DNA of 64,000 nt from Hysterangium stoloniferum (taxonomy: Eukaryota > Basidiomycota > Agaricomycetes > Hysterangiales > Hysterangiaceae). Of this stretch, positions 17,801-39,175 are shown one piece after another (the stretch's first letter is position 1; each line of letters begins with the position of its first letter). The translations under genes were made by a program, and so were the position numbers. The stretch lies in the NCBI GenBank assembly GCA_015178975.1, contig WHVD01000257.1, positions 1 through 64,000 of the forward strand, given 5' to 3'. Under the pieces are notes generated by a model. The model was not told the DNA's origin. It saw only the letters and a list, made by a program, of their open reading frames with translations, and did not search any database.

Positions 17801-20099
17801 TAGATTCAAATAGATTCAAATAGATTCTTTCAGATTCAGATAGATTCTTTGAGATTCAGATAGATTCTTTTAGATTCACATAGATTCTTTTAGATTCACA
17901 TAGATTCACATAGATTCATTTAGATTCAGATAGATTCAGATAGATTCAGATAGATTCACATAGATTCACATAGATTCACATAGATTCACATAGATTCACA
18001 TAGATTCACATAGATTCACATAGATTCAGATAGATTCTTTTAGATTCAGATAAATTCTGTTAGATTCAGATAGATTCTTTTAGATTCACATAGATTCAGA
18101 TAGATTCTTTTAGATTCTTTTAGATTCACATAGATTGAGATAGATTCTTTTAGATTCAGATTGATTCTTTTAGATTCAGATTGATTCTTTTAGATTCAGA
18201 TTGATTCTTTTAGATTCAGATTGATTCTTTTAGATTCAGATTGATTCTTTTAGATTCAGATTGATTCTTTTAGATTCAGATTGATTCTTTTAGATTCAGA
18301 TTGATTCTTTTAGATTCAGATTGATTCTTTTAGATTCACATAGATTCATTTAGATTCAGATAGATTCTTTTATATTCAGATAGATTCTTTTAAATTCACA
18401 TAGATTCAGATAGATTCTTTTAGATTCAGATAGATTCAGATAGATTCAGATAGATTCAGATAGATTCAAATAGATTCAAATAGATTCACATAGTTTCTCT
18501 TAGATTCACATAGACTCTTTTAGATTCACATAGATTCTTTTAGATTCACATAGATTCTTTTAGATTCACATAAATTCAGATAGATTCTTTTAGATTCAGA
18601 TAGATTCACATAGATTCACATAGATTCTTTTAGATTCACATAGATTCACATAGATTCAGATAGATTCAGATAGATTCAAATAGATTCAAATAGATTCACA
18701 TAGTTTCTCTTAGATTCACATAGACTCTTTTAGATTCACATAGATTCTTTTAGATTCACATAGATTCTTTTAGATTCACATAAATTCAGATAGATTCTTT
18801 TAGATTCAGATAGATTCAGATAGATTCACATAGATTCTTTTAGATTCACATAGATTCAGATAGATTATTTTAGATTCAGGTAGATTCTTGTAGATTCAGA
18901 TAGATTCTTTTAGATTCTTTTAGATTCTTTTAGATTCTTTTAGATTCAGATAGATTCAGATAGATTCAGATAAATTCTTTTAGATTCAGATAGATTCTTT
19001 TAGATTCAGATAGATTCTCTTAGATTCACATAGACTCTTGTAGATTCACATAGATTCTTTTAGATTCACATAGATTCACATAGATTCAGATAGATTATTT
19101 TAGATTCAGGTAGATTCTTGTAGATTCAGATAGATTCTTTTAGATTCAAATAGATTCTTTTAGATTCAGATAGATTCTCTTAAATTCACATAGACTCTTT
19201 TAGATTCACATAGATTCTTTTAGATTCACATAGATTCAGATAGATTCTTTTAGATGCAGATAGATTCTGTTAGATTAAGATAGATTCACATAGATTCAGA
19301 TAGACTCTTTTAGATTCACATAGATTCAAATAGATTCTTTTCGATTCAGATAGATTCTTTTAGATTCTTTTAGATTCACATAGATTCAGATAGATTCTTT
19401 TAGATTCAGATTGATTCTTTTAGATTCACATAGATTCAGGTAGATTCTTTTAGATTCACATAGATTCAGATAGATTCATTTAGATTCAGATAAATTCATT
19501 TAGATTCAGATAAATTCATTTAGATTCAGATAAATTCATTTAGATTCAAATAGATTCAGATAGATTCAAATAGATTCAGATAGATTCAAATAGATTCAGA
19601 TTGATTCAAATAGATTCAAATAGATTCAGATAGATTCTCTTAGATTCACAAAGACTCTTTTAGATTCACATAGATTCTTTTAGATTCACATAGATTCAGA
19701 TAGATTATTTTAGATTCAGGTAGATTCTTGTAGATTCAGATTGATTCTTTTAGATTCACATAGATTCAGATAGATTCTTTTAGATTCAGATAGATTCACA
19801 TAGATTCAGATAGATTCTTTTAGATTCAGATTGATTCTTTTAGATTCACATAGATTCAGGTAGATTCTTTTAGATTCTTTTAGATTCAGATAGATTCAGA
19901 TAGATTCAGATAGATTCTCTTAGATTCACATAGACTCTTTTAGATTCACATAGACTCTTTTAGATTCACATAGACTCTTTTAGATTCACATAGATTCTTT
20001 TAGATTCACATAGATTCAGATAGATTCTTTTAGATTCAGATAGATTCAGATAGATTCTTTTTGATTCAGATAGATTCTTGTAGATTCTTTTAGATTCAC
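17800..20099 (+). repeat. decanucleotide satellite, TAGATTCNNN orientation
   Basis: Roughly 230 head-to-tail 10-bp units, TAGATTC followed by mostly AGA, ACA, TTT or AAA. Higher-order blocks recur: a TTT/AGA alternation with TTGATTC variants at 18150-18330, and a six-unit block with tagattatttt, tagattcagg and tagattcttg at about 18860, 19085 and 19700. Every unit holds TAG, so all plus frames are closed. Confidence 0.95.
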
Positions 20100-20115
20100 C
20101 CTAAACCATAAAGAA
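20100..20115. other. centre of the palindromic element
   Basis: The satellite switches from TAGATTCNNN to its reverse complement here through the only non-decamer sequence between the arms, ccctaaaccataaag. It is the symmetry point of a palindrome nearly 7 kb long. Confidence 0.85.
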
Positions 20116-23100
20116 ATCTAAGAGAATCTATATATCTGAATCTATGTGAATCTAAAAGGATATGTGTGAATCTATCTGAATCTATCTGAATCTATCTGAA
20201 TCTAAAAGGATGTATGTGAATCTAAAAGAATCTATCTGAATCTATGTGAATCTAAAAGAGTCTATGTGAATCTAAGAGAATCTATCCGAATCTATCTGAA
20301 TCTATGTGAATCTAAAAGAATCTAAAAGAATCTACCTGAATCTATGTGAATCTAAAAGAATCAATCTGAATCTAAAAGAATCTATCTGAATCTATGTGAA
20401 TCTATCTGAATTTAAAAGAATCTATCTGAATCTTCAAGAATCTACCTGAATCTAAAATAATCTATCTGAATCTATGTGAATCTAAAAGAATCTATGTGAA
20501 TCTAAAAGAGTCTTTGTGAATCTAAGAGAATCTATCTGAATCTATTTGAATCTATTTGAATCTATCTGAATCTATTTGAATCTAAATGAATTTATCTGAA
20601 TCTAAATGAATCTATCTGAATCTATGTGAATCTAAAAGAATCTACCTGAATCTATGTGAATCTAAAAGAATCAATCTGAATCTAAAAGAATCAATCTGAA
20701 TCTAAAAGAATCAATCTGAATCTAAAAGAATCTATCTGAATCTATGTGAATCTAAAAGAATACAAAAGAATCTATCTGAATCGAAAAGAATCTATCTGAA
20801 TCGAAAAGAATCTATCTGAATCGAAAAGAATCTATCTGAATCGAAAAGAATCTATTTGAATCTATGTGAATCTAAAAGAGTCTATCTGAATCTATCTGAA
20901 TCTATCTGAATCTAACAGAATCTATCTGAATCTAAAAGAATCTATCTGAATCTATGTGAATCTAAAAGAATCTATGTGAATCTAAAAGAGTCTATGTGAA
21001 TTTAAGAGAATCTATCTGAATCTAAAAGAATCTATTTGAATCTAAAAGAATCTATCTGAATCTACAAGAATATACCTGAATCTAAAATAATCTATCTGAA
21101 TCTATGTGAATCTAAAAGAATCTATCTGAATCTATGTGAATCTAAGAGAATCTATCTGAATCTATTTGAATCTATCTGGATCTAAAAGAATCTAAAAGAA
21201 TCTATCTGAATCTATCTGAATCTATCTGAATCTAAAAGAATCTAAAAGAATCTAAAAGAATCTAAAAGAATCTATCTGAATCTACAAGAATCTACCTGAA
21301 TCTAAAATAATCTATCTGAATCTATGTGAATCTAAAAGAATCTATGTGAATCTATGTGAATCTAAAAGAGTCTATGTGAATTTAAGAGAATCTATCTGAA
21401 TCTATTTGAATCTATTTGAATCTATTTGAATCTATCTGAATCTACAAGAATCTACCTGAATCTAAAATAATCTATCTGAATCTATGTGAATCTAAAAGAA
21501 TCTATCTGAATCTATGTGAATCTAAGAGAATCTATCTGAATCTATTTGAATCTATCTGGATCTAAAAGAATCTAAAAGAATCTATCTGAATCTATCTGAA
21601 TCTAAAAGAATCTAAAAGAATCTAAAAGAATCTAAAAGAATCTATCTGAATCTACAAGAATCTACCTGAATCTAAAATAATCTATCTGAATCTATGTGAA
21701 TCTAAAAGAATCTATGTGAATCTATGTGAATCTATCTGAATCTAAAAGAATCTATCTGAATCTATGTGAATCTAAAATAATCTATGTGAATCTAAATGAA
21801 TCTATGTGAATCTAAAAGAATCTATGTGAATCTAAAAGAGTCTATGTGAATCTAAGAGAAACTATCTGAATCTATTTGAATCTATTTGAATCTATTTGAA
21901 TCTATCTGAATCTATCTGAATCTATCTGAATCTAAAAGAATCTATCTGAATCTATGTGAATTTAAAAGAATCTATCTGAATATAAAAGAATCTATCTGAA
22001 TCTAAATGAATCTATGTGAATCTAAAAGAATCTAAAAGAATCTATCTGAATCTATGTGAATCTAAAAGAATCAATCTGAATCTAAAAGAATCAATCTGAA
22101 TCTAAAAGAATCTATCTGAATCTATGTGAATCTAAAAGAATCTAAAAGAATCTAAAAGAATCTACCTCAATCTACGTGAATCTAAAAGAGTCTATCTGAA
22201 TCTTTCTGAATCTATCTGAATCTAAAAGAATATATCTGAATCTAACTGAATCTATCTGAATCTATCTGAATCTATCTGAATCTATCTGAATCTATCTGAA
22301 TCTATCTGAATCTACGTGAATCTAAAAGAATCTATCTGAATCTATCTGAATCTAAAAGAATCTAAAAGAATCTATCTGAATCTATGTGAATCTCAAAGAA
22401 TCTATCTGAATCTAAAAGAATCTATCTGAATCTACATGAATCTACCTGAATCTAAAAGAATCTACCTGAATCTAAAAGAATCTATCTGAATCTATGTGAA
22501 TCTAAAAGAATCTATGTGAATCTAAAAGAGTCTATGTGAATTTAAGAGAATCTATCTGAATCTAAAAGAATCTAAAAGAATCTATGTGAATCTATGTGAA
22601 TCTAAAAGAATCTATCTGAATCAATGTGAATCTAAAAGAATCTACCTGAATCTAAAAGAATGTATGTGAATCTATCTGAATCTATCTGAATCTATCTGAA
22701 TCTATCTGAATCTATCTGAATCTATCTGAATCTATCTGAATCTATCTGAATCTAAAAGAATCTATCTGAATCTAAAAGAATCTATCTGAATCTATCTGAA
22801 TCTAAAAGAATCTATCTGAATCTACAAGAATCTACCTGAATCTAAAATAATCTATCTGAATCTATGTGAATCTAACTGAATCTATCTGAATCTAAAAGAA
22901 TCTTTCTGAATCTAAAAGAATCAATCTGAATCTAAAAGAATCTATCTGAATCTAACAGAATCTATCTGAATCTAAAAGAATCTATCTGAATCTATGTGAA
23001 TCTAAAAGAATCTATCTGAATCTACGTGAATCTAAAAGAATCTATCTGAATCAATGTGAATCTACAAGAATCTACCTGAATCTAAAAGAATCTATCTGAA

Positions 23101-23290
23101 TCTATGTGAATCTAAAAGAATCTATCTGAATCTAAAAGAATCTATCTGAATCTAAAAGAATCTATCTGAATCTATGTGAATGTAAAAGAATCTATCTGAA
23201 TCAATGTGAATCTAAAAGAATCTACCTGAATCTAAAAGAATCTATCTGAATCTATCTGAATCTATCTGAATCTAAAAGAATCTACCTGAA
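20116..23290 (-). repeat. decanucleotide satellite, inverted (NNNGAATCTA) orientation
   Basis: Roughly 320 units reading TCTATCTGAA, TCTATGTGAA or TCTAAAAGAA on the plus strand, i.e. the same decamer inverted. The higher-order block with ctacaagaa, ctacctgaa and ctaaaataa (reverse complement of the left-arm block) recurs at about 20430, 21070, 21280, 21450, 21650 and 22830. This arm is about 0.9 kb longer than the left one, so the arms have expanded independently. Confidence 0.95.
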
Positions 23291-23294
23291 TCTA

Positions 23295-23994
23295 AAACAA
23301 TCCTCTTAAATATTTGTGAATCCCACTGTACCATTCCAAACAATTGTGAATCATGCTCAATCAGGAAAAATCAGTTCAAGGTTTCTCATCTTGAAAAACC
23401 TTTAAGAAACTCATGTGAAATTGTTAATTTCTTCAAGATTTCACCAACACATTTTTTGAATTTCCATAGTGTTTATGGCCAAGGAAAATCTTATTGAAAT
23501 CTATAATTATTCAATGATTTCCCATATAATTAAATTGTCAATTTAATTACGGTTTTCCCCTCTTGACAAAACATTAACAAAACTTTGTCTTGGCACAAGA
23601 TTTTCCTCGCAAAAAACTACAGTTTTCACCCAATTCCCTGAGCAGAAAAATTGAGTAGAAATATGTGGTTTTCAATTGATTTCTCTTGGCAAATTATTAC
23701 AGTTTTGATAGAATTCTGTTGGGTGGAAAAACCCTAACAAAACCCAGGGTTTTTTAAGAATTTTCCTATTTAGAAAATCCACAGAAAATAGGCTATTTCC
23801 AACAATGTTTCCTTAGAATGTCCTGATTAACATTTTTAGGGTTTTCAGATACAATTTTTGTCCTCAGAAAAACCTACTAAAACCCACAATTTTTGACCAG
23901 TTTTTCCAGTTCAAAGAATGCTTAGCAAATTTGGCCAAATAGCAAGATTTTCTGAAGGTTTTGCAACTCCAAAAATCTTGGGGTGCCTCCAGTG
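23295..23994 (-). repeat. right terminal inverted repeat
   Basis: Reverse complement of 17102-17800, starting at the satellite border with aaacaatcctcttaaatatt and ending GGGGTGCCTCCAGTG. The outermost ~25 bp are the best conserved part. Confidence 0.9.
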
Positions 23995-23997
23995 TCG

Positions 23998-25877
23998 GCC
24001 TTTTGGTTGGGCCTCCGGGATCAAAACACGGAGGCACACCGTGCTTGCAAGCCACACTCGAGGCAGTATAGACACCTGAATAGGCGTGCCATCGCGTTCA
24101 TAACTACACGATGCGGATGAATTAAGTGAGAAATAAGTGGGGTTTTCTGCTTAATTTCGTTCTTATTTCACTTAATGGGCAATAAGCATGACAAGGAGAC
24201 ATTAAGTCGGTTTAAGTGAAATTCGGATTGCCTGAAGCGTTCTGGCACTGCTTTTAATTTTATAATGCATGCCACCTTGGTGCCTTGTCCTGGGGTCCTG
24301 CATACTTATTTTGGAAATCTAATATCTTGTGTCTGCCTAACATGCATTACTAGGGAATATTATACTTGGATACCTATCTCCACTCCCACGTATCTAATAT
24401 ATACCAACACATTTTATTTGGAAGAGAGTCATAACTCCTTGACGATACGAGCTCTGTAAGGCGCCATCAACTGCTCTGATCGAGAGCCGTACACCAGCCC
24501 CTTACGCTGGATTTTTCTCAGCGCTCTCCAGCTGTTGTCATTAGGTAATAAAATTGTGCTATTGACAATTTTATAGATACATGCCACACCGCATATTCTA
24601 CTGAATATAGCTTTGCAAATGCAATAAACAATCTTTCTACAGGGAAAACGTCCTTGAGTTTTGATCCGACTAAAGACAACATATATCTAAGAATTGCTAG
24701 GCAGTATTAGCTCCGAGGGCTTAAGGTTTAAAGGTTTCAAGATCGTACGGTAGTTCGACTCGCGGGTACATTATTTCCTTTTTCTCTTTTTACCCGGAGA
24801 AAGCGGGGGGCCTGCAGTGCCTGAACCCTGTTGTGGGTGCTCTAACTCGCGAAGAGCTTATATCTCAACCCCGGGGTTACGGTACTACCAACTAGGCTAC
24901 TGTACTTGTGGTATCACTGTTACATCTTCGACCGGTTGTTGGCATGATAGGCCTGGGTGTACAGGGGAAAACTCACCGAATCTGATGTTCCTTTCAACTA
25001 TATTTTTCACCTGTCGTTCCTTCAAAAAGAACTTTCTCATCATTGTGCTGTTGTTTTTGGCATTGTCAGATGTGATCCAACCAGTCCGTTAAATCCAATT
25101 AAATAATTCCTTTCTTGTCACGTTGTGTTGTAATTGTGGTAATTTGGCACGAAAGGGCAGCGCGATGGCGCGTATGGAGCACGACCGTAATAGATATAGT
25201 TAACGTGATGTCCAATGGTTATTTAGCTCATTAACAGACATTTTTGACCATTAAGAAGTCTCTCACATCCCGACGTCCGATCCATCGAATCTGAGTCCCA
25301 CGTCTATTGTCACCTGTAAATAGCGCAACGCACGCTTCGCAGCCTCTCAATGGTAATTTTTTGGGTTTACGCTATAGCGTCCGAGTAACTGGATTATATG
25401 AGATTCCCACACCCCCTACTCAACTTGCGGATAACCCCCGTAGAAACTTTGCCTGGGTAGGCGCTGCGTGCGCATCTTACGATTTGGTATACTCAATATT
25501 TCTCAGTACCGTGTGTTTCCAATATATAAATTTCCAAAGATAAATATGCAGGACCCGCGGTATGATCTCGGTAAACGTCAAGCACCTCAGCTCAATGGGC
25601 CTCGGCCGAAGATATATTAGCCTGTTGGAGACTTACTACAAAAAACAACGCGTGGGAAAGTTACTTAGTGCAGTGTGGCTGTCGAGATAGTTGTGATGGC
25701 GTCTTACCGAGATCGTCTCTCTAGGGATTTAAGATTACTCGTGATGGCGCGATGAGACGCATGCTCGGTTGTCTATACTGCTCCGAGTGCAACTGTATAT
25801 ATACGTAGTAATTTATGTTGTTTGTCGAGTCCTTTCACTTGCTTGGCTGACCACCGTGAGTCAAATTCCCATGGGTG
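23998..25877. other. intergenic, two small hairpins, no supportable gene
   Basis: An inverted repeat of attaagtga-aataag type lies at about 24120-24184, and a compact hairpin ATAAAATTGT...ACAATTTTAT at about 24548-24575. ORFs here (24265-24459, 24817-25092, 25307-25543) are short and without motifs. Confidence 0.45.
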
Positions 25878-27474: not shown

Positions 27475-28037
27475 TGTTACGACCCGTTCCCGGATGTTTC
27501 AATATCCGACTTCCGATCTCCCACTTTCGATATCCGATATCCGACTACGGAACATCATAGTTACCGTATCATCCGCATTCTTCGTTTGTTCCGCATTTGG
27601 TAATTTGTCCGTTGACAAGTATTCACTTGTTTGTTGTTGTATTCCCGTCTCGGAATATTGTCTTCCTAATATGTCTTATTGTATTTCTGTTTTAAGAATA
27701 CTTCCGTTTCCGTCTTATTATGGTCTCAGTTTGTAGTACAATAACGAGTAGACTTATATTAGTTTCCGTGAATTTGTACTTTACTTGAGATCTGATATCG
27801 ACTTAGTTTCTTATTCCTCCTCCCGTCTTTCTGTACGCTCGATATTCGGAACTCTTCGGAACTCTGAATATCCATATCTTCCGTCGTTAGTTCACTTCCG
27901 AAATTAAGGACATTGAGCGTTTGCGTAGAGGCGCAGCACATAAGCTGAAGCCGACGTCCTGACCCTATCCACGAGTTTCCGACTTCCCGGTGACTTCCCG
28001 ATAGTTCCGGAATAAGTTCCTGACACGGCACTTAACA
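27475..28037 (-). mobile_element. solo Gypsy LTR (563 bp) nested in Copia pol, TAGCA duplication
   Basis: TGTTACGACCCG...GGCACTTAACA, flanked by TAGCA (27470-27474 and 28038-28042). It is nearly identical to the LTR of the Gypsy element at 32216-32798 read on the other strand, so it inserted recently, after the Copia element. It carries the shared core block at 27931-27953. Confidence 0.95.
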
Positions 28038-32215: not shown

Positions 32216-32798
32216 TGTTAAGTGCCATGTCGGGAACTTATTCCGGAACTATCGGGAAGTCACCGGGAAGTCGGAAACTCGTGGATAGGGTCAGGACGTC
32301 GGCTTCAGCTTATGTGCTGCGCCTCTACGCAAACGCTCAATGTCCTTAATTTCGGAAGTGAACTAACGACGGAAGATATGGATATTCAGAGTTCCGAAGA
32401 GTTCCGAATATCGAGCGTACAGAAAGACGGGAGGAGGAATAAGAAACTAAGTCGATATCAGATCTAAAGTAAAGTACAAATTCACGGAAACTAATATAAG
32501 TCTACTCGTTATTGTACTACAAACTGAGACCATAATAAGATGGAAACGGAAGTATTCTTAAAACGGAAATACAATAAGACATATTAGGAAGACAATATTC
32601 CGAGACGGGAATACAACAACAAACAAGTGAATACTTGTCAACGGACAAATTACCAAATGCGGAACAAACGAAGAATGCGGATGATACGGTAACTATGATG
32701 TTCCATAGTCGGAGGTCAAAGTCGGAAGTCGGGGATCGGAAGTCGGGAGTGGGAGACCAGAAGTCGGATATTGAAACATCCGGGAATGGGTCGTAACA
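32216..32798 (-). repeat. Gypsy 3' LTR (583 bp)
   Basis: TGTTAAGTGCC...GGTCGTAACA on plus. The shared core block is at 32300-32323. Rich in CpG, unlike the older copies at 6790 and 13690. Confidence 0.93.
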
Positions 32799-32810
32799 GT
32801 ACCCCCCTGT
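32799..32810 (-). promoter_or_regulatory. Gypsy polypurine tract
   Basis: Minus strand CAGGGGGGTAC directly precedes the 3' LTR. Confidence 0.6.
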
Positions 32811-32982
32811 TAGGCCGAAATCCCATAGAGGCGATTAGGTACTGAGTGTTTGAAGCGACGGCTGACTGTTATGTGTCGTGAAATTTACGCAATTATGGAG
32901 GTGAGAGTTTCGGTTATTATTCTGAGTATAAAAACCTCCAAATATTCGAATTAACGTTTTTGTTTCTTTAACCACAACTTGT

Positions 32983-34125
32983 ATGTCGATTCGTCGGCCG
33001 TTATTCATCACTACCCCGGAAAACTCAGATACCGAAATATCCGTACTTCAAAAGATGTCGAAGGTCGCAGAACTTCAACAAAAACGCCAGAAAATGGAGG
33101 AGTTGAAGCGACGACAGGAGGAGGAGGAAAAAGCGTTGATAAAAGAGTTGAGGGATGCGGAAGAGGCGGAAAAATGGGAATTGGAGTGGGTGAAGGCGGA
33201 AAAAGAAAAAGAGTTGGCGAGGTTGCGGAAAGTGATGGAGGATCGGAGGTTGAAGGAAGAAGAAGTGAAGAAACAACAAGAAGCTGAGGCGGCGGAAAAA
33301 CGTAAGGAGGTAAGGGAAGGAAAGGTGAGTCCAATTCCATAGATTTCCGTGGTTACAACCGATAACTGTTGCGTACAGCGAAAAGCCGTGGAGGTGGAAG
33401 TAGAGGGAGAAGCTGGGCCTTCGAGTCCTAAAGTAAGTGCATCTACAAAAGGTCGGTAATTGACTAATCTTTCGAAACAGAAACAAAAGGTCAAGGCTCC
33501 GGAACGGATGGAAATTGTCCATGACACTCCATGTGTTCGATGTTCCGTATGGGATATAACTTGTTGGAAACAGAAGGTAAAATGGGGTGGAACTTGTTAT
33601 CCTTGCGCGGTCCTCAAACTTCCGTGCACTCTTGCTGCGAAAAGGGTTCCGAAAAGCGAAAAGGCTCAAAAACCTACCATCGCGGAAGGTTCAGGAGCGA
33701 CCAAAACTGCGGAAACTAAGGTGCCGAGTACGGATGGTATGGGCGTTGAGCTCCTTAAGGAATTGGTCGATACAATGGTCTTCATCGGGGTTGAGATGCG
33801 GGAAATGCGGGAAACACTGGATCGCCATAATAAGATCCAGGAGAAGGGTTTCCGTTCGCTGGTCCGGAATTTCCGGAGGCAAAACGATTTCCTGGAGAAG
33901 ATGATGGTTAGTATCGGTGTAATCGCGGTATCTGAACGATTTGCCGATAAGGCGAAAAACCAGCCGAACGATCCATTGGCGGAGTGTGTGGAGTGGAGAT
34001 GGGGGTCGGGAAAAGAGGAGAGTGAAGATGAGGAGGTACAGGATATGGTGGAAAGTGCGGAAATTGCTGAAGAGCTGGAGGTTGGGACGGAAGGTGGATT
34101 TGGGGTGTCAGAGACTTTAAGATAG
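32983..34125 (+). CDS. antisense accessory gene with coiled coil and Zn2Cys6-like cluster
   Basis: Three exons (32983-33324, 33379-33432, 33481-34125) join in phase 0 at GT-AG sites to about 346 residues ending at TAG/TAA near 34125. The first exon is an almost pure Glu/Lys/Arg coiled coil (MEELKRRQEEEEKALIKEL). Exon 3 opens with six cysteines spaced C-x2-C-x6-C-x10-C-x2-C-x6-C (CVRC, then C, C, CYPC region, C), the Gal4-type Zn(II)2Cys6 spacing. A second helical region (VEMREMRETLDRHNK) and an acidic C-terminus (KEESEDEEVQDMVE) follow. It runs against pol, ending about 80 bp from pol's stop, and its start is about 185 bp inside the LTR border. It could bind DNA or the element's own promoter, or act as an RNA/gag-binding accessory; that is inference. 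Confidence 0.75.
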
Positions 34126-34203: not shown

Positions 34204-35832
34204 TTAGAGTGATGATAAAGGTCCGGGTTTGCCTGGATAAGCCGTGTGGAAGTCAGTAACAATTTCCATAGCATGTCCAAGTTCCGTGGCCAATATCCAT
34301 GAAGTTTCCTCGTCGGTACCTTCATAACCTGCGCATTTGACTAAATAGAGCAATTTACAAGTACGTCGGCGATTGTCAATTTTAGAATCCAAAATTTCGG
34401 AAACTTCGAATTCAGGTTCTCCATCAATGATGACCGGAGGGGACGGAGGTTGAATACGTTCCGGGAATGAGTTAGGAACACAAGGTTCTAGCATGGAAAC
34501 GTGGAAAATGGGGTGGACTGCTCGCATACTGTCGGGAAGACGGAGAGTCCATGAAAGTGAACCGGCTTGTGCTATAATTTCGAAAGGTCCTAAGAATTTC
34601 TCAGCGAGTTTTTTAGAAGGTCGGGTAGTACGGAAGAATTGAGCTTTTACAAAAACCTGATCACCAACTTTAAAATTAGGAGGCGGGATCCTGTTTTTGT
34701 CCGCGGAACGTTGATAATGTTCCTGTGCGGAAGAAATAGCTTTCCGAAGTTCTTGATGTAATTCGTCGAGGTCGGTAATAAATTCTTGAGCACGGACAGA
34801 AGCCAAATCTCGTTCGGAATGTACTGTGAGATTCGGATTATAGCCTTTATTGGCGAAGAAGGGAGATATGCCGGTGGTTGCATTCGGAGAGTTATTGTAG
34901 GCAAATTCCACGATCAGAAGAAGGGATTTCCAGTTGTCCTGTTGATAATTACAATAGATGCAGAGATATTGTTCCAGTGTTTGATTAACGCGTTCCGTTT
35001 GTCCATCACCTTCTGGGTGATATCCCGAGGTGAAGTGTAGTTTCATGTCGAGGGCTTTTCCGAGGGCCTGGAAGAAATGGGAGATGAACTTGGAGCCTCG
35101 ATCGGAAGTTACGTGAGATGGAACTCCGTGTTTGGAAAATATGTGAATAATGAAAAGTTCCGCTAATTGTAAGGACGTGATTGTATCATGAGTGGGTATG
35201 AAAATGCCTTGTTTCGAGAATCGGTCCACAACGACTAGAATGGATGTAAAGCCTTTGGAAGTCGGGAGTTGTTTGATAAAATCCATGGAAATTGAATTCC
35301 AAGGTTTCTCTGGTATCGGGAGTTGCTTGAGAAGGCCGTACGGCTTATGCCTCTGGGTTTTAGAGCGTAAGCAGGTGGTGCATGACTTACAGAACTGAGT
35401 TACAAAATCTCGGGGGTTGGGCCAAGTGTATTCTCTACGGATTAAACCAAGAGTGTTGTTGATGCCGTAATGTCCGGAGATTGGATGATCATGTTTATAC
35501 TGAAGTACGCGGAGTCGGAGATTGTTGGAATCTGGAATGTAGATACGTCCATCGAGACGGATAAAACCTTGAGAGTCTTGTGACCATCGGGGTTGGTCGG
35601 GATTGTCGGGAACTTCTAAATGTGGCTTGAGGGCCGGGTCGGAAGTGAGTGCGGAAAGGATATCTTGATGTAATCGCTCAATGTCCATAATCATGACGCT
35701 ACGCATAATTGGATAGTAAAGGGAAGTTGCTCGGATAGATGCGGAAAGTTGTTGCGTTGTAAAAACCGGTTTCGGGTTATGTGGATTAACAACAGCATAG
35801 TTACTTTCCCCCTCTTTAGGATAGATGTCCCA
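34204..35832 (-). CDS. Gypsy integrase with C-terminal chromodomain
   Basis: In the same frame as the RT part, after one TGA at 35833-35835. The zinc finger (HDHPISGHYGINNTLGLI then CKSCTTCLRSK, HHCC) precedes the rve core with D (SMDFIKQLP), D (VTSDRGSKF) and E (GQTERVNQTLEQYL). The C-terminal GPFEI/HPIFHVSMLEP block is followed by a chromodomain (FEVSEILDSKI, then YLVKCAGYEG, then ETSWI). Chromodomains direct integration to marked chromatin. The frame is otherwise uninterrupted for 500 codons, so inactivation is slight and recent. Confidence 0.93.
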   Translation of the reverse strand, partial: WDIYPKEGESNYAVVNPHNPKPVFTTQQLSASIRATSLYYPIMRSVMIMDIERLHQDILSALTSDPALKPHLEVPDNPDQPRWSQDSQGFIRLDGRIYIPDSNNLRLRVLQYKHDHPISGHYGINNTLGLIRREYTWPNPRDFVTQFCKSCTTCLRSKTQRHKPYGLLKQLPIPEKPWNSISMDFIKQLPTSKGFTSILVVVDRFSKQGIFIPTHDTITSLQLAELFIIHIFSKHGVPSHVTSDRGSKFISHFFQALGKALDMKLHFTSGYHPEGDGQTERVNQTLEQYLCIYCNYQQDNWKSLLLIVEFAYNNSPNATTGISPFFANKGYNPNLTVHSERDLASVRAQEFITDLDELHQELRKAISSAQEHYQRSADKNRIPPPNFKVGDQVFVKAQFFRTTRPSKKLAEKFLGPFEIIAQAGSLSWTLRLPDSMRAVHPIFHVSMLEPCVPNSFPERIQPPSPPVIIDGEPEFEVSEILDSKIDNRRRTCKLLYLVKCAGYEGTDEETSWILATELGHAMEIVTDFHTAYPGKPGPLSSL

Positions 35833-37895
35833 TCATCGAGTCATGGCATCTGGTTTTCCACCAAGACGTCCGGGTCGGAAACGGATAATCATGTTGAAAG
35901 CGGAAAGAAATTCAGACCAACGGGCCTGCCGGCGGGTTAAAAGTTTAGTGGTAGAAAAATATTCGAGATTTTTGTGATCAGTAACGACGTCAATGGGAGT
36001 TGCGGAACCTTCGAGATAATGGCGCCAATGTTTGAAAGCTTCAAAAATTGCCAAAAGTTCCTTATCATGAACGTCGTAATTGAGTTCGGATACTGAAAGT
36101 GTCCGAGAAAGGAATGCGACCGGATGAATTTCACCGTCGGAATCTTGAATGGAAAGGATCGCGGCAATTGCATAATCGGAAGCATCGGTTTCCACAATAA
36201 TCAGGACATCAGGTTTCCAATGGGAAAGAATCGGGGCAGAAGTGAAAGCATTTTTTAAAGTCTGGAAGGCGGAGCGGCATTTGTCATCAAAAACCCATGG
36301 TTGAGTTTTACGGGTAAGACGAGTGAGCGGTACTGTAATATCCGAGTAGTTCCGAATAAAACGATGGTAAAAGTTGGCAAAACCTAAAAATGATTGAATG
36401 TCCTTGACCTTCCGTGGTTCGGGCCAGTCACGGACAACTTGAACCTTGGTTTCATCCATACGGAGACCACCAGGGCCGATGATGAAACCTAAGTATTCAA
36501 TAGAATCCATGTCAAAATAACATTTTTTACCGTTGGCGAAAAGACCGTTTTTACGGAGTCTTCGGAAGACTTCACGGACCTGTTCATCGTGAAGAGCGGG
36601 ATCCTCGGAAAATACCAAAATGTCGTCCAAATAGACTATAACACATACGTCAAGCATGTCGGAAAATATATCATTAACAAAACGTTGAAAAGCGGAAGGG
36701 GCGTTGGTAAGGCCGAACGGCATAACCAACCATTCAAAGGATCCATAGCGAGTCCGAAAAGCAGTTTTCCATTCATCGCCCTCGGCAATTCGGACCAAAT
36801 CATAGGCGTGTTTGAGGTCTATTTTGGTGTAGATCCGAGCTTTCCATGGGGTGTCGAGTAAATCGGTAACGAGTGGAAGTGGATACTTGTCTTTCCGTGT
36901 AATGGAATTTAACCCTCTGAAATCGACACAGAGTCGAAGAGAGCCGTCCTTCTTTCGGACAAAAAGGACGGGTGCTCCATACGGAGACTTTGAGGGACGG
37001 ATAAAACCTATCGACAGATGTTCATCCAGGAACTCCTGAATAGATGAAAGTTCCGATTGGGATAATGGGTAAATAGGTCCTAATGGAGGGTTTGAACCGG
37101 GCTCAATATCGATTTTTAAGTCATAGGGCCTATGTGGTGCAAGCCTGTCAGCTTTTTTCTTACTGAAAATGTCCGCGAAATCATGGTATTTTTCGGGAAC
37201 TCCTTCCAGATCAGCTTTTAGCTCGGATAATTCTGGAGTCGCAAAACGTCCAGATGCTTCATCAACTTTTAGGCTGATCGAAAAACATTGCGAGCCATCC
37301 AGTTTACTCGCCCTAACAAATGCCGAAGCATTGATGAGAGAGATTTTTGGGGGCTCGGAAGTTTTGGTAGAAGCCGGAGGTGCCGTTGATGCCGAAAAGG
37401 CATTGGCTGGAAAAGATGCTGCAGGAGGAACGGAAGTGTGGGGAGTCCGGAAAGTAATACTGCCCAATACCCAGTCAATCAACGGATTATATCGGGTGAG
37501 CCAGTTGTATCCAAGAACTGCCGAACAGCTAGAGTCCAACTGTGTTACAAAAAATGTAACCATCTGGGATGTTCCACAAGGGAACCGGATAGACATGTCG
37601 CAGGCTTGAGTAATTGCCGTATTGCTAGTGCCGTCAAACAAACGCAAGGAAATTGCGGGAACAGAATGGAGTTTCAGATTATGTTTCGTGGCAAAGGTGG
37701 TATGTACAAAACAGTGTGTGGAGCCGGAATCTATTAGAGCTCGGAACACTAAATTTCCAAGAAAGTCAGAGACGAGTTTTACAAATAATGAATTGGGATT
37801 AGAGAGAGCGGACACGTTGAGACGGACAACCTCGGAAACATGGAGAGAGTCAACGCAACCCTCTGTCCGTGCAGATTCCAGAGGGTTGCTTACTC
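35833..37895 (-). CDS. Gypsy protease, reverse transcriptase and RNase H
   Basis: The open frame extends upstream without an ATG right to the gag frameshift site at 37896. Protease: FRALIDSGSTHCFVH. RT: LCVDFRGLNSITRKDKYPLP, then YGSFEWLVMPFGLTNAPS and the catalytic VYLDDILVFS. RNase H: IVETDASDYAIAAIL and VVTDHKNLEYF. It ends GKPDAMTR-TGA (35833-35835); the next in-frame residues WDIYPK fit the family continuation, so the TGA most simply replaces an Arg CGA codon. Expression would be as a Gag-Pol fusion through -1 frameshifting. Confidence 0.93.
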
Positions 37896-37902
37896 TTTTT
37901 TT
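37855..37902 (-). promoter_or_regulatory. -1 ribosomal frameshift signal between gag and pol
   Basis: On the minus strand the end of gag reads TCA AAA AAA GAG TAA. A_AAA_AAA (37902-37896) is an X_XXY_YYZ slippery site in the gag frame. After 6 nt (GAGTAA) comes a perfect 11-bp stem, GCAACCCTCTG (37889-37879) with CAGAGGGTTGC (37865-37855), and a 13-nt loop. The pol frame is exactly -1 relative to gag, is open from the slip site onward and has no early ATG. All parts of a programmed -1 signal are present at standard spacing. Confidence 0.88.
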
Positions 37903-39116
37903 GACTCCGTGGCGGGTTTTTCCTTAGACGTCGTAGTCGTAGTGGAAGTTGCCGCGCGAGCCTTGGAAGAGCTGGATTTAACGGTACAGTCGGAAACCTT
38001 GTGTCCGCCTTTCCCGCAGAAAAGGCAGAGGTCGTTGTCCATACGTCGTTGTTTCTCCTTCGGGGTGAGTTTACCGTCGGTACCCAACAAATGGGAAATG
38101 TCGGGTTTGTCGGAAGTTGACTGTTTTTCCTTGTTGGATTTCTTGTCTTTCTTCCGGTCGGAATTTGATTTGCCAGTATTAGTGCCAGAGCCGGTATTAT
38201 TGCCTGAGTTGTTGCCGGAAGACTTGCTAGTCGACACCTTGTTGTTCTGAGAATGTTCCGTCGGGTTCTCTCGAGAAACCTCGGCTTTTCGTTCCCAATA
38301 ACGGGCATTGGATGTTTGAGCTTTCATCCGCATGAGTTGGAGAGTTTTTGGCTTTCCATCTTTGCAGATTTCGTCTTTAAGGCGTGACGGAAGTCCCATA
38401 TAGAAATGGTGCCTGAGGGCGGAATCGTCCCATCCACATCGTGCGGCGAGGGTATTGAACTTGATGAGATAATCGGAAACTCGTTGATTGTCCTTCATCT
38501 TGAGCGTCATTAGTTCGTTTTCTGCTTCGCCGGATTGATCGTAAGGTCCGAAATTAGTGTCCAGTTCTTCCACGAAAGCATCCCAGTCGTTGAGCCATAC
38601 AGGTGTCTCGTCGGATATTCCGGATAGTCCGGGTTCAAACCAATCCTGAGCGGTATCCTTGAGATATGAGAGCGCAAAATTGACTTTTCGACTGTCGGAT
38701 TTAAAAGCATTGGGTCGATCACGGAAACTGAAACGGCATTGAAGAAGGAAATTCTTCAATTTTTTCGGATCCTTGCCGGTAAATGGTTCGGGTTCTTTGA
38801 CTCTGGTGCGGGATGATTCTTTGCTATCCTCAGCGGATTTCAAATAGTCAGCGAATTTCACAATGGAGTTGATAAACCACATTTCAGTCGGTTCGTCGGG
38901 AGATTTCTTTTTCAATGTCTCCGGCTGATCTTCTGCTTCGTTGTCGGAAGTATGGGGATCATTGGGATCCTTTGTTACCTCGGTAACCTCCTCGGTAACT
39001 TCTTCAATTGAAGCTGATGTTGTCGGCTGAATTGGGGTTTCGGGTTGGGTGGTGTAAAGTTGCAATGGGGATTGAAGTTGGGATGGTCCTTCGGCAGCTT
39101 TGCGTTTGGGACCCAT
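37890..39116 (-). CDS. Gypsy Gag with CCHC zinc knuckle
   Basis: A 408-codon intact frame starting MGPKRKAAEGPS. After an acidic Thr/Glu-rich N-terminus comes the Retrotrans_gag capsid region (KVNFALSYLKDTAQDWFEP, then NFGPYDQSGEAENEL and MKDNQRVSDYLIKF). An Asn/Ser/Gly-rich linker is followed by the knuckle CLFCGKGGHKVSDC that binds element RNA. It ends in a Ser/Thr/Lys tail at the frameshift site. No disabling mutation seen. Confidence 0.93.
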   Translation of the reverse strand: MGPKRKAAEGPSQLQSPLQLYTTQPETPIQPTTSASIEEVTEEVTEVTKDPNDPHTSDNEAEDQPETLKKKSPDEPTEMWFINSIVKFADYLKSAEDSKESSRTRVKEPEPFTGKDPKKLKNFLLQCRFSFRDRPNAFKSDSRKVNFALSYLKDTAQDWFEPGLSGISDETPVWLNDWDAFVEELDTNFGPYDQSGEAENELMTLKMKDNQRVSDYLIKFNTLAARCGWDDSALRHHFYMGLPSRLKDEICKDGKPKTLQLMRMKAQTSNARYWERKAEVSRENPTEHSQNNKVSTSKSSGNNSGNNTGSGTNTGKSNSDRKKDKKSNKEKQSTSDKPDISHLLGTDGKLTPKEKQRRMDNDLCLFCGKGGHKVSDCTVKSSSSKARAATSTTTTTSKEKPATESKKE

Positions 39117-39152
39117 GATGAGCGAGTCGCAGAGTTGAGATCTGATATACTG

Positions 39153-39175
39153 TTAAGTGCCGTGTCGGGAACTGA
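39153..39175 (-). repeat. residual 23 bp of the Gypsy 5' LTR
   Basis: TGTTAAGTGCCGTGTCGGGA plus ACT matches the LTR tip at 32216, then similarity stops. The sequence inside it (minus GTATATCAGATCTCAAC) is where the primer site should be. Confidence 0.8.

Follow-up and report, generated by a model that had tools for sequence, protein, structure and literature searches.

A Gypsy retrotransposon of the fungus Hysterangium stoloniferum carries, between the end of pol and its 3' LTR, a reading frame that runs against gag and pol. This locus raises the question of whether a mobile element can encode its own regulator on the opposite strand: is there a genuine spliced gene, what kind of protein does it specify, and what might that protein do to the element? 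The window that we analysed is a stretch of 64,000 nucleotides (contig WHVD01000257.1, positions 1 to 64,000 of the forward strand) and lies on contig C176 of the 111-Mb host genome. Hydrophobin matches in this genome exceeded the Pfam cut-off and, like the named relatives of the gene described below, suggest an agaricomycete that may stand close to Hysterangium. A first-pass annotation had described here a three-exon gene whose product would join a long charged coiled coil to a Gal4-type cluster of six cysteines. The element around the gene consists of the following parts:

32216..32798, minus strand: 3' LTR, 583 bp, with the ends TGTTA..TAACA; its plus strand is rich in CGG[AG]A
32799..32811, minus strand: polypurine tract adjoining the 3' LTR, an identical string in 64 of the 70 copies described below
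34204..35706, minus strand: C-terminal half of pol, with integrase (H2C2, rve), a Tf2-type SH3 domain and a chromodomain-like end below the cut-off
35833..37815, minus strand: N-terminal half of pol, with protease, RT and RNase H
37890..39116, minus strand: gag (Retrotrans_gag), with a CCHC knuckle below the cut-off
39151..39173, minus strand: 5' LTR stub of 23 bp; the remainder is missing from the window copy

RT, RNase H and integrase exceeded their Pfam cut-offs. The chromodomain family PF00385 matched the pol of the window at E 0.0027 and 18 bits, against a cut-off of 25.1, and is present in the precomputed annotation of many close relatives. The window copy is damaged, with pol split into two open reading frames and the 5' LTR reduced to its stub. 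Among 40 LTR matches scored in the host genome, at least eight same-orientation pairs lay 6.92–6.96 kb apart, which indicates that a complete copy of the element measures about 7.5 kb; the antisense gene was intact in 5 of the 8 copies with paired LTRs. A solo LTR of the same family (27475–28037, plus strand), with a 5-bp duplication TAGCA, sits between the reading frames of what appears by eye to be a Copia element. Elsewhere in the window, a minisatellite with units of about 10 bp (TAGATTCAGA type) occupies 18000–23302 of the scanned interval 18000–25000 and may begin earlier; its orientation flips near 20100, giving two large inverted arms.

The gene itself was resolved into these features:

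32927..32932, plus strand: TATA box (TATAAA), putative promoter element of the antisense gene
32983..34125, plus strand: antisense gene, three exons, running against gag-pol in the interval that separates pol from the 3' LTR
32983..33324, plus strand: exon 1, 342 nt; the N-terminal 40 residues are conserved, followed by a variable, highly charged stretch
33325..33378, plus strand: intron 1, 54 nt, GTGAGT..CAG
33379..33432, plus strand: exon 2, 54 nt, 18 conserved codons, ending in SSPK
33424..33495, plus strand: predicted nuclear localization signal (NLS) PKK(Q/P)KVK, created by the joining of exons 2 and 3
33433..33480, plus strand: intron 2, 48 nt, GTAAGT..CAG; no other block differs as much from copy to copy
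33481..34125, plus strand: exon 3, 645 nt, with six-cysteine module, variable linker, long predicted helix, acidic tail and stop
33532..33627, plus strand: six-cysteine module C-x2-C-x6-C-x10-C-x2-C-x6-C

These coordinates confirmed the plus-strand gene between the pol stop and the 3' LTR as it had been proposed: all exons are in phase 0, both introns are of the GT..AG type, and the product has 346 amino acids. The first base of the TATA box lies 56 bp before the ATG, and the stop of the gene (34125) and that of pol (34204, minus strand) face each other.

Exon 3 has at least 150 strong matches in the host genome (of 845 candidates), the weakest at E 4.3e-93, with identities of 67–100%; 116 of the 150 listed contain no in-frame stop. 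We examined 70 of these 150 in their context, namely the 30 best (the window's own included) and the next 40 listed, and 6 further gene pieces beside them. A 12-base string around the TATA box was exact in 65 of the 70 copies, the ATG was kept in 69, and all four splice dinucleotides were kept in 66. The starts of both introns were present in 69 copies, the exception being L072, which is truncated through the introns; the splice donors vary between GTGAGT and GTAAGT. An LTR match lay beside the gene in 68 copies. A pol match on the opposite strand, convergent with the gene, was found in 70/70 copies of this sample, which was located through the antisense gene and which element copies devoid of it would escape. 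The large number of strong matches and the recurring TATA string, ATG, splice dinucleotides and convergence with pol indicate that this is no chance reading frame, and the same place beside pol in every copy upholds the earlier proposal of a conserved, predicted-spliced and oppositely oriented gene in a Gypsy element. The spliced frame was fully open in 39 copies and not intact in the other 31. Decay is not peculiar to the gene, as the aligned pol piece contained a stop in 29 of the 70 copies. Most of the in-frame stops listed genome-wide, whether in gag, in pol or in the antisense gene, are TGA, the codon that CpG decay would make out of CGA. The persistence of the introns would fit replication through an RNA of gag-pol sense, in which antisense introns go unrecognised.

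Read without splicing, the gene ran into a stop in 39/39 intact copies. Differences among these copies at codon positions 1, 2 and 3 of exon 3 amounted to 0.100, 0.065 and 0.184, and those in introns 1 and 2 to 0.11 and 0.30. Between types (31 intact copies of five types), dN/dS was 0.16–0.28 in six of seven blocks, indicating purifying selection, and 0.68 in the linker (residues 184–220), remaining below 1 in every block. Pooled pN/pS was 0.32 for the antisense gene versus 0.20 for the pol end in the 32 of 39 intact copies with at least 440 aligned pol codons, so the gene is less constrained than pol. Given the codon-position pattern, the dN/dS values and the stops in the unspliced reading, we regard it as close to certain that this is a protein-coding, spliced antisense gene.

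What does the gene encode? The putative NLS at the exon 2–3 junction occurred in 38 of the 39 intact copies, and the Cys module, the variable linker, the predicted helix and the acidic tail follow it in that order. The helix spans 87–160 of exon 3, with block pLDDT values of 65–83 over residues 91–150 in a single-sequence model that was poor overall; the single-sequence AlphaFold models were of low confidence (mean pLDDT 53.6 and 54.4). The long charged coiled coil assigned to exon 1 survived as to its charge, with 60% charged residues over residues 24–114, and found no support as to its coil. Shuffles gave a heptad periodicity as strong as the observed one in 79 of 500 cases for this charged stretch and in 73 of 500 for the C-terminal helix; neither signal was significant, and coiled coils in the antisense protein were set aside on this ground.

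A single-sequence protein search with the window protein yielded no relative among 5406 candidates, and a search with a profile of 61 copies yielded three. Two of these are Hysterangium stoloniferum proteins (E 8.3e-45 and 4.5e-24), whose matches lie beyond the Cys module and leave the module itself uncovered. The metagenomic protein P0002 (42% identity, E 8.2e-40) contains all six cysteines in identical spacing and retains WGGxCYPCAVxKxPC. A PDB profile search with the antisense protein gave 0 matches, and in viral contigs none of 106 stretches with a pattern match was confirmed. At E<=10, TRP28 (PF04195) was not among the Pfam matches of the window protein and the exon-3 copies, nor were bZIP families among the Pfam matches of this set; those of the antisense protein included no gag family.

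We then considered whether the module is of the Gal4 type. Fungal Zn2Cys6 domains (PF00172) have the spacing C-x2-C-x6-C-x5,12-C-x2-C-x6,8-C. In the window protein the cysteines stand at residues 150, 153, 160, 171, 174 and 181, in the spacing that the first-pass annotation had read; this spacing falls within that of PF00172 in P0002 and in 39/39 intact copies, all of which keep the six-Cys pattern. Other copies thus have the gene, and the intact ones have unbroken spacing. One Cys was lost in each of two additional decayed copies (L080 and L081), and among 61 open exon-3 frames, decayed ones included, four cysteines were invariant and two were kept in at least 90%. The pattern arose in 0 of 200,000 trials in which the residues of the window protein were shuffled. 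The two halves of the module are alike (CYRCSIRNMTC and CYPCAVLKLPC in many copies), a likeness that may be that of a binuclear cluster.

Tests of similarity beyond the cysteines gave a different answer. PF00172 did not match the whole 346-aa window protein at E<=10, nor did it match P0002. It was the family matched by most members of the exon-3 set (31 of 61 copies), with a best E of 0.69, and two copies scored in detail reached 8.7–8.8 bits against a cut-off of 21; the HMM comparison thus ended below the cut-off or without a match. When the tables were compared, none of the 150 antisense matches was among the 83 PF00172 matches listed in the host genome. PROSITE PS00463 describes a basic signature between Cys2 and Cys3 of Zn2Cys6 domains, and this signature occurred in 0 of the 39 intact copies. 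An hhalign comparison with five yeast Zn2Cys6 domains aligned all six cysteines at a score of 18.2; Cys-fixed shuffles gave a mean of 17.2 and a maximum of 33.7, and full shuffles 10.8 and 21.5 (100 each). Because Cys-fixed shuffles score alike, we rejected the profile-profile score as evidence of Zn2Cys6 homology. The first-pass interpretation is thus partly supported: the Cys spacing holds, and the Gal4-type assignment does not extend to the Pfam score, the basic signature or any similarity beyond the cysteines. Since the spacing fits and the other tests do not show the Gal4 type, we call this a six-cysteine module of Zn2Cys6 spacing, which likely binds zinc. As a separate observation, PF00172 matches in the host genome cluster on contigs C56, C115, C308, C209, C309, C37 and C85, some within one open frame, as if the fungus encoded proteins with tandem zinc clusters.

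The copies differ from one another mainly within the gene, and the region of greatest difference was delimited as follows:

33103..34010, plus strand: block highly divergent between types, with approximate borders; 60–89% identity in 150-bp windows, flanks mostly 90–99%

This block emerged from a comparison, in 150-bp windows, of the window copy with seven others, of which two share its type and five belong to other types. Identity in the windows of the LTR, the leader and pol was mostly 90–99% among the compared copies, with exceptions in L042 (75% at the LTR end and 84% in pol) and in L029, a copy of the window's own type (79% at the LTR end, the site of an indel). For the five other types, identity fell to 60–89% within the antisense gene; their divergence covered exon 3 only in two types and began at about residue 40 in three, ending near residue 308.

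Median pairwise divergence among the 70 copies (2211–2415 of 2415 pairs used, depending on the block) was 0.067 in the LTR, 0.049 in the leader, 0.056 in exon 2 and 0.030–0.035 in the pol blocks. Within the rest of the gene it was 0.178 in the variable part of exon 1, 0.157 in intron 1, 0.234 in intron 2, 0.111 in the Cys part, 0.200 in the linker, 0.144 in the helix and 0.109 in the tail. The pol block 35001–35500 had a median of 0.030, a mean of 0.107 and a maximum of 0.67, the mean having been inflated by some copies that are broken or poorly aligned. The 18 codons of exon 2 are conserved about like the LTR, and both introns that flank them are among the most divergent blocks.

Clustering by average linkage at 10% (65 of the 70 copies) placed 63 copies in one LTR cluster, with two singles, and all 65 in one cluster for pol 34204–35000. 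The antisense gene fell into 11 clusters in its exon-1 part, 7 in the first part of exon 3 and 8 in the helix, and these segments occurred in 14 mosaic combinations, four of which hold 52 copies. Synonymous divergence between types was 0.26–0.49 in the variable blocks versus 0.09 in the pol end, up to about fivefold higher, which suggests old gene lineages on a homogenised backbone. Most simply, the backbone would have been made uniform by recombination between copies during reverse transcription. Sampling does not explain this pattern, because the choice of copies by exon-3 similarity works against exon-3 diversity. Genome-wide identities were 88–100% for gag (at least 102 matches), 90–100% for an RT piece (at least 90), 90–100% for the pol end (at least 87) and 67–100% for exon 3 (at least 150), sets of unequal depth in which the direction alone counts and for which gag and RT were compared by match tables. 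Distances in the LTR correlated with those in the exon-3 parts at r 0.23–0.32, with exon 1 at 0.61 and with pol at 0.60.

A candidate target of a Zn2Cys6-like protein would be rich in CGG. CGG[AG]A occurred 17 times on one strand of the LTR, compared with 3.4 ± 1.6 in shuffles and at most 5 in the 2731 LTR-sized windows outside the element. The excess extended to gag, pol and the antisense gene, the density in gag and pol being roughly one third of that in the LTR. The motif is strand-biased in the LTR (17 versus 4), and its density there is 29 per kb on one strand versus 1–2 per kb in two other 5-kb stretches. Column conservation in 57 full-length LTRs, of 68 matched, did not support CGG as a conserved target: the third G of CGG scored 0.942, other G residues that are not part of a CpG scored 0.926, and the positions that belong to neither CGG nor CpG together scored 0.947. 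A CGG-N4-CGG tandem at the LTR end, present three times in the window copy, was dropped as a candidate, an indel leaving several of the other copies without it.

What the protein does can be approached from these features. We lean, with somewhat less than even confidence, toward a nuclear, zinc-binding regulator of transcription from the LTR of its own element. The gene would be transcribed from the TATA box toward pol, and splicing of both introns would create the reading frame and the PKKxKVK signal. The protein would then enter the nucleus, bind zinc as a binuclear cluster and pair through its C-terminal helix, bind CGG-type half sites, which are abundant in the LTR, and dampen gag-pol transcription of like copies, a form of copy-number control; variants of helix and linker would change which copies or which host partner the protein pairs with. 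The steps from nuclear entry, zinc binding and pairing onward are the least certain, and pairing is a guess given the non-significant heptad periodicity in exon 1 and the C-terminal helix. The predicted NLS, the Cys module, the gene's own TATA box, its place beside U3 and the CGG[AG]A-rich LTR all favour an LTR regulator, as do the precedents of HBZ (PMC10186651), Grande (PMC7264820) and the Ty1 types (PMC7055915), as these sources describe them. Against it stand a PF00172 score that is below cut-off or absent, a likeness to Zn2Cys6 domains confined to the Cys positions, a CGG[AG]A excess that reaches beyond the LTR, CGG positions in the LTR that are not specially conserved, a gene less constrained than pol, and structure models of low confidence. 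Moreover, variants in DNA specificity predict covariation of the LTR, which hardly varies with exon 3. For this reason, and given that variation in the Cys part is lower than in exon 1, the linker and the helix, specificity, if the variation carries it, more likely sits in protein pairing than in the choice of DNA.

The uniform LTR beside a variable helix and linker could point to action after transcription, with the protein restricting or helping the element, for instance through an interaction with Gag, with RNA or with the integration complex, and the Cys module serving as a zinc-stabilised protein or RNA contact. The module has no DNA-binding signature beyond its Cys spacing, and Ty1, as described in PMC7055915, offers a Gag-derived factor with recombined gag variants; we nevertheless consider post-transcriptional action rather unlikely, given the predicted NLS in 38 of 39 copies and Pfam matches devoid of a gag family. 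If the product instead counters a host silencing or restriction factor, its variation would reflect an arms race. The Cys module indeed varies less than the exon-1 stretch, the linker and the helix, where variation peaks; the linker has a dN/dS of 0.68; and CpG methylation of the element would be expected to leave TGA stops such as many copies contain. However, dN/dS is below 1 in every block and the high synonymous divergence speaks of old lineages, not just of fast amino-acid change, which leaves an arms race improbable.

Two further explanations would make the protein minor or irrelevant to the element. The gene and pol run toward each other, the antisense mRNA would be the complement of the genomic RNA, and roles of convergent transcription or double-stranded RNA are discussed for antisense ORFs (PMC7264820, in the accessible text), so the transcript could act as RNA; but the codon-position pattern, dN/dS below 1, the kept cysteines and a frame maintained across two introns in 39 intact copies point to the protein and render this very improbable. 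That the gene is captured host cargo without a function for the element, or a decaying passenger, is barely credible and already disfavoured: 31 of the 70 copies are not intact, but the pol piece decays as well (29 of 70 with a stop), the place and orientation beside pol are identical in 70/70 copies, there are at least 150 matches, and relatives exist in other sources.

Returning to the LTR regulator, one unlikely elaboration is that the gene is a self-recognition locus, in which a spliced nuclear zinc-cluster protein exists in old variants of its pairing domain, recombination has shuffled these onto a shared gag-pol-LTR backbone, each variant holds back copies of like type and newly arisen variants escape. 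If true, this would be the retrotransposon counterpart of phage immunity groups, placed on the opposite strand. The locus offers a good handle on the problem: a single genome contains at least 150 matches, the frame is opened by splicing, the cysteines are kept in every intact copy examined, an NLS is predicted at the junction, and natural variants sit on a common backbone. The many matches and natural variants on that backbone make it testable whether the gene controls its own element, and does so variant-specifically; the gene would open to experiment the question of how mobile DNA keeps its copies in check.

In plants, the Gypsy elements Grande (gene23), RIRE2 and Retand are known to carry accessory ORFs in antisense orientation between pol and the 3' LTR (PMC7264820, PMC11963269); as described there, these ORFs resemble the Hysterangium gene in position, orientation, presence in most copies and a proposed regulatory role. 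The gene23 protein of Grande is nuclear and has its own promoter, for which the TATA string and the predicted NLS are the counterparts here; the same source proposes a regulatory role for antisense ORFs and describes the function of antisense accessory genes in LTR retrotransposons as unknown (PMC7264820). Retand-type ORFs differ in carrying TRP28 (PF04195), which the Hysterangium gene did not match. The latter is set apart from the plant ORFs by two small introns, the Cys6 module and a predicted NLS formed at a splice junction; the word "intron" is absent from the accessible text of the Retand paper (PMC11963269), and the accessible text of PMC7264820 and PMC11963269 does not describe block-wise variability on a uniform backbone for the plant ORFs. 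Among fungi, brtn is the antisense gene of Boty in Botrytis cinerea (Zhao 2011, as reported in PMC7264820 and PMC8365987); it likewise lies between pol and the 3' LTR of a fungal LTR element, but that element is from an ascomycete, and the two are compared by description only.

Precedents for regulation come from further afield. According to PMC10186651, HBZ of HTLV-1 is a nuclear protein, encoded by a spliced antisense gene, that reduces the output of the 5' LTR. Both genes are antisense genes of an LTR element and spliced (here by prediction), a likeness that is functional only, with no homology; HBZ belongs to the bZIP proteins and is expressed from inside the 3' LTR, whereas the Hysterangium gene has no bZIP match and its TATA box lies outside the LTR. 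Copy-number control in Ty1 (canonical Ty1 and Ty1') is subtype-specific and involves recombined gag, as PMC7055915 describes; these are likewise subfamilies with recombined, divergent versions of a self-acting gene, although the Ty1 factor is part of Gag and acts on particles. With fungal Zn2Cys6 factors the antisense protein shares the Cys spacing, the order of zinc module, linker and helix, and a CGG-rich candidate target, but it falls below the Pfam cut-off, has no basic signature and carries its Cys module in a central position. A search of titles and abstract openings, with subscription papers outside its scope, returned no basidiomycete Gypsy antisense gene with introns and such a Cys module. 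Antisense genes of this class are known; the spliced, many-variant form with a predicted NLS at the junction is new.
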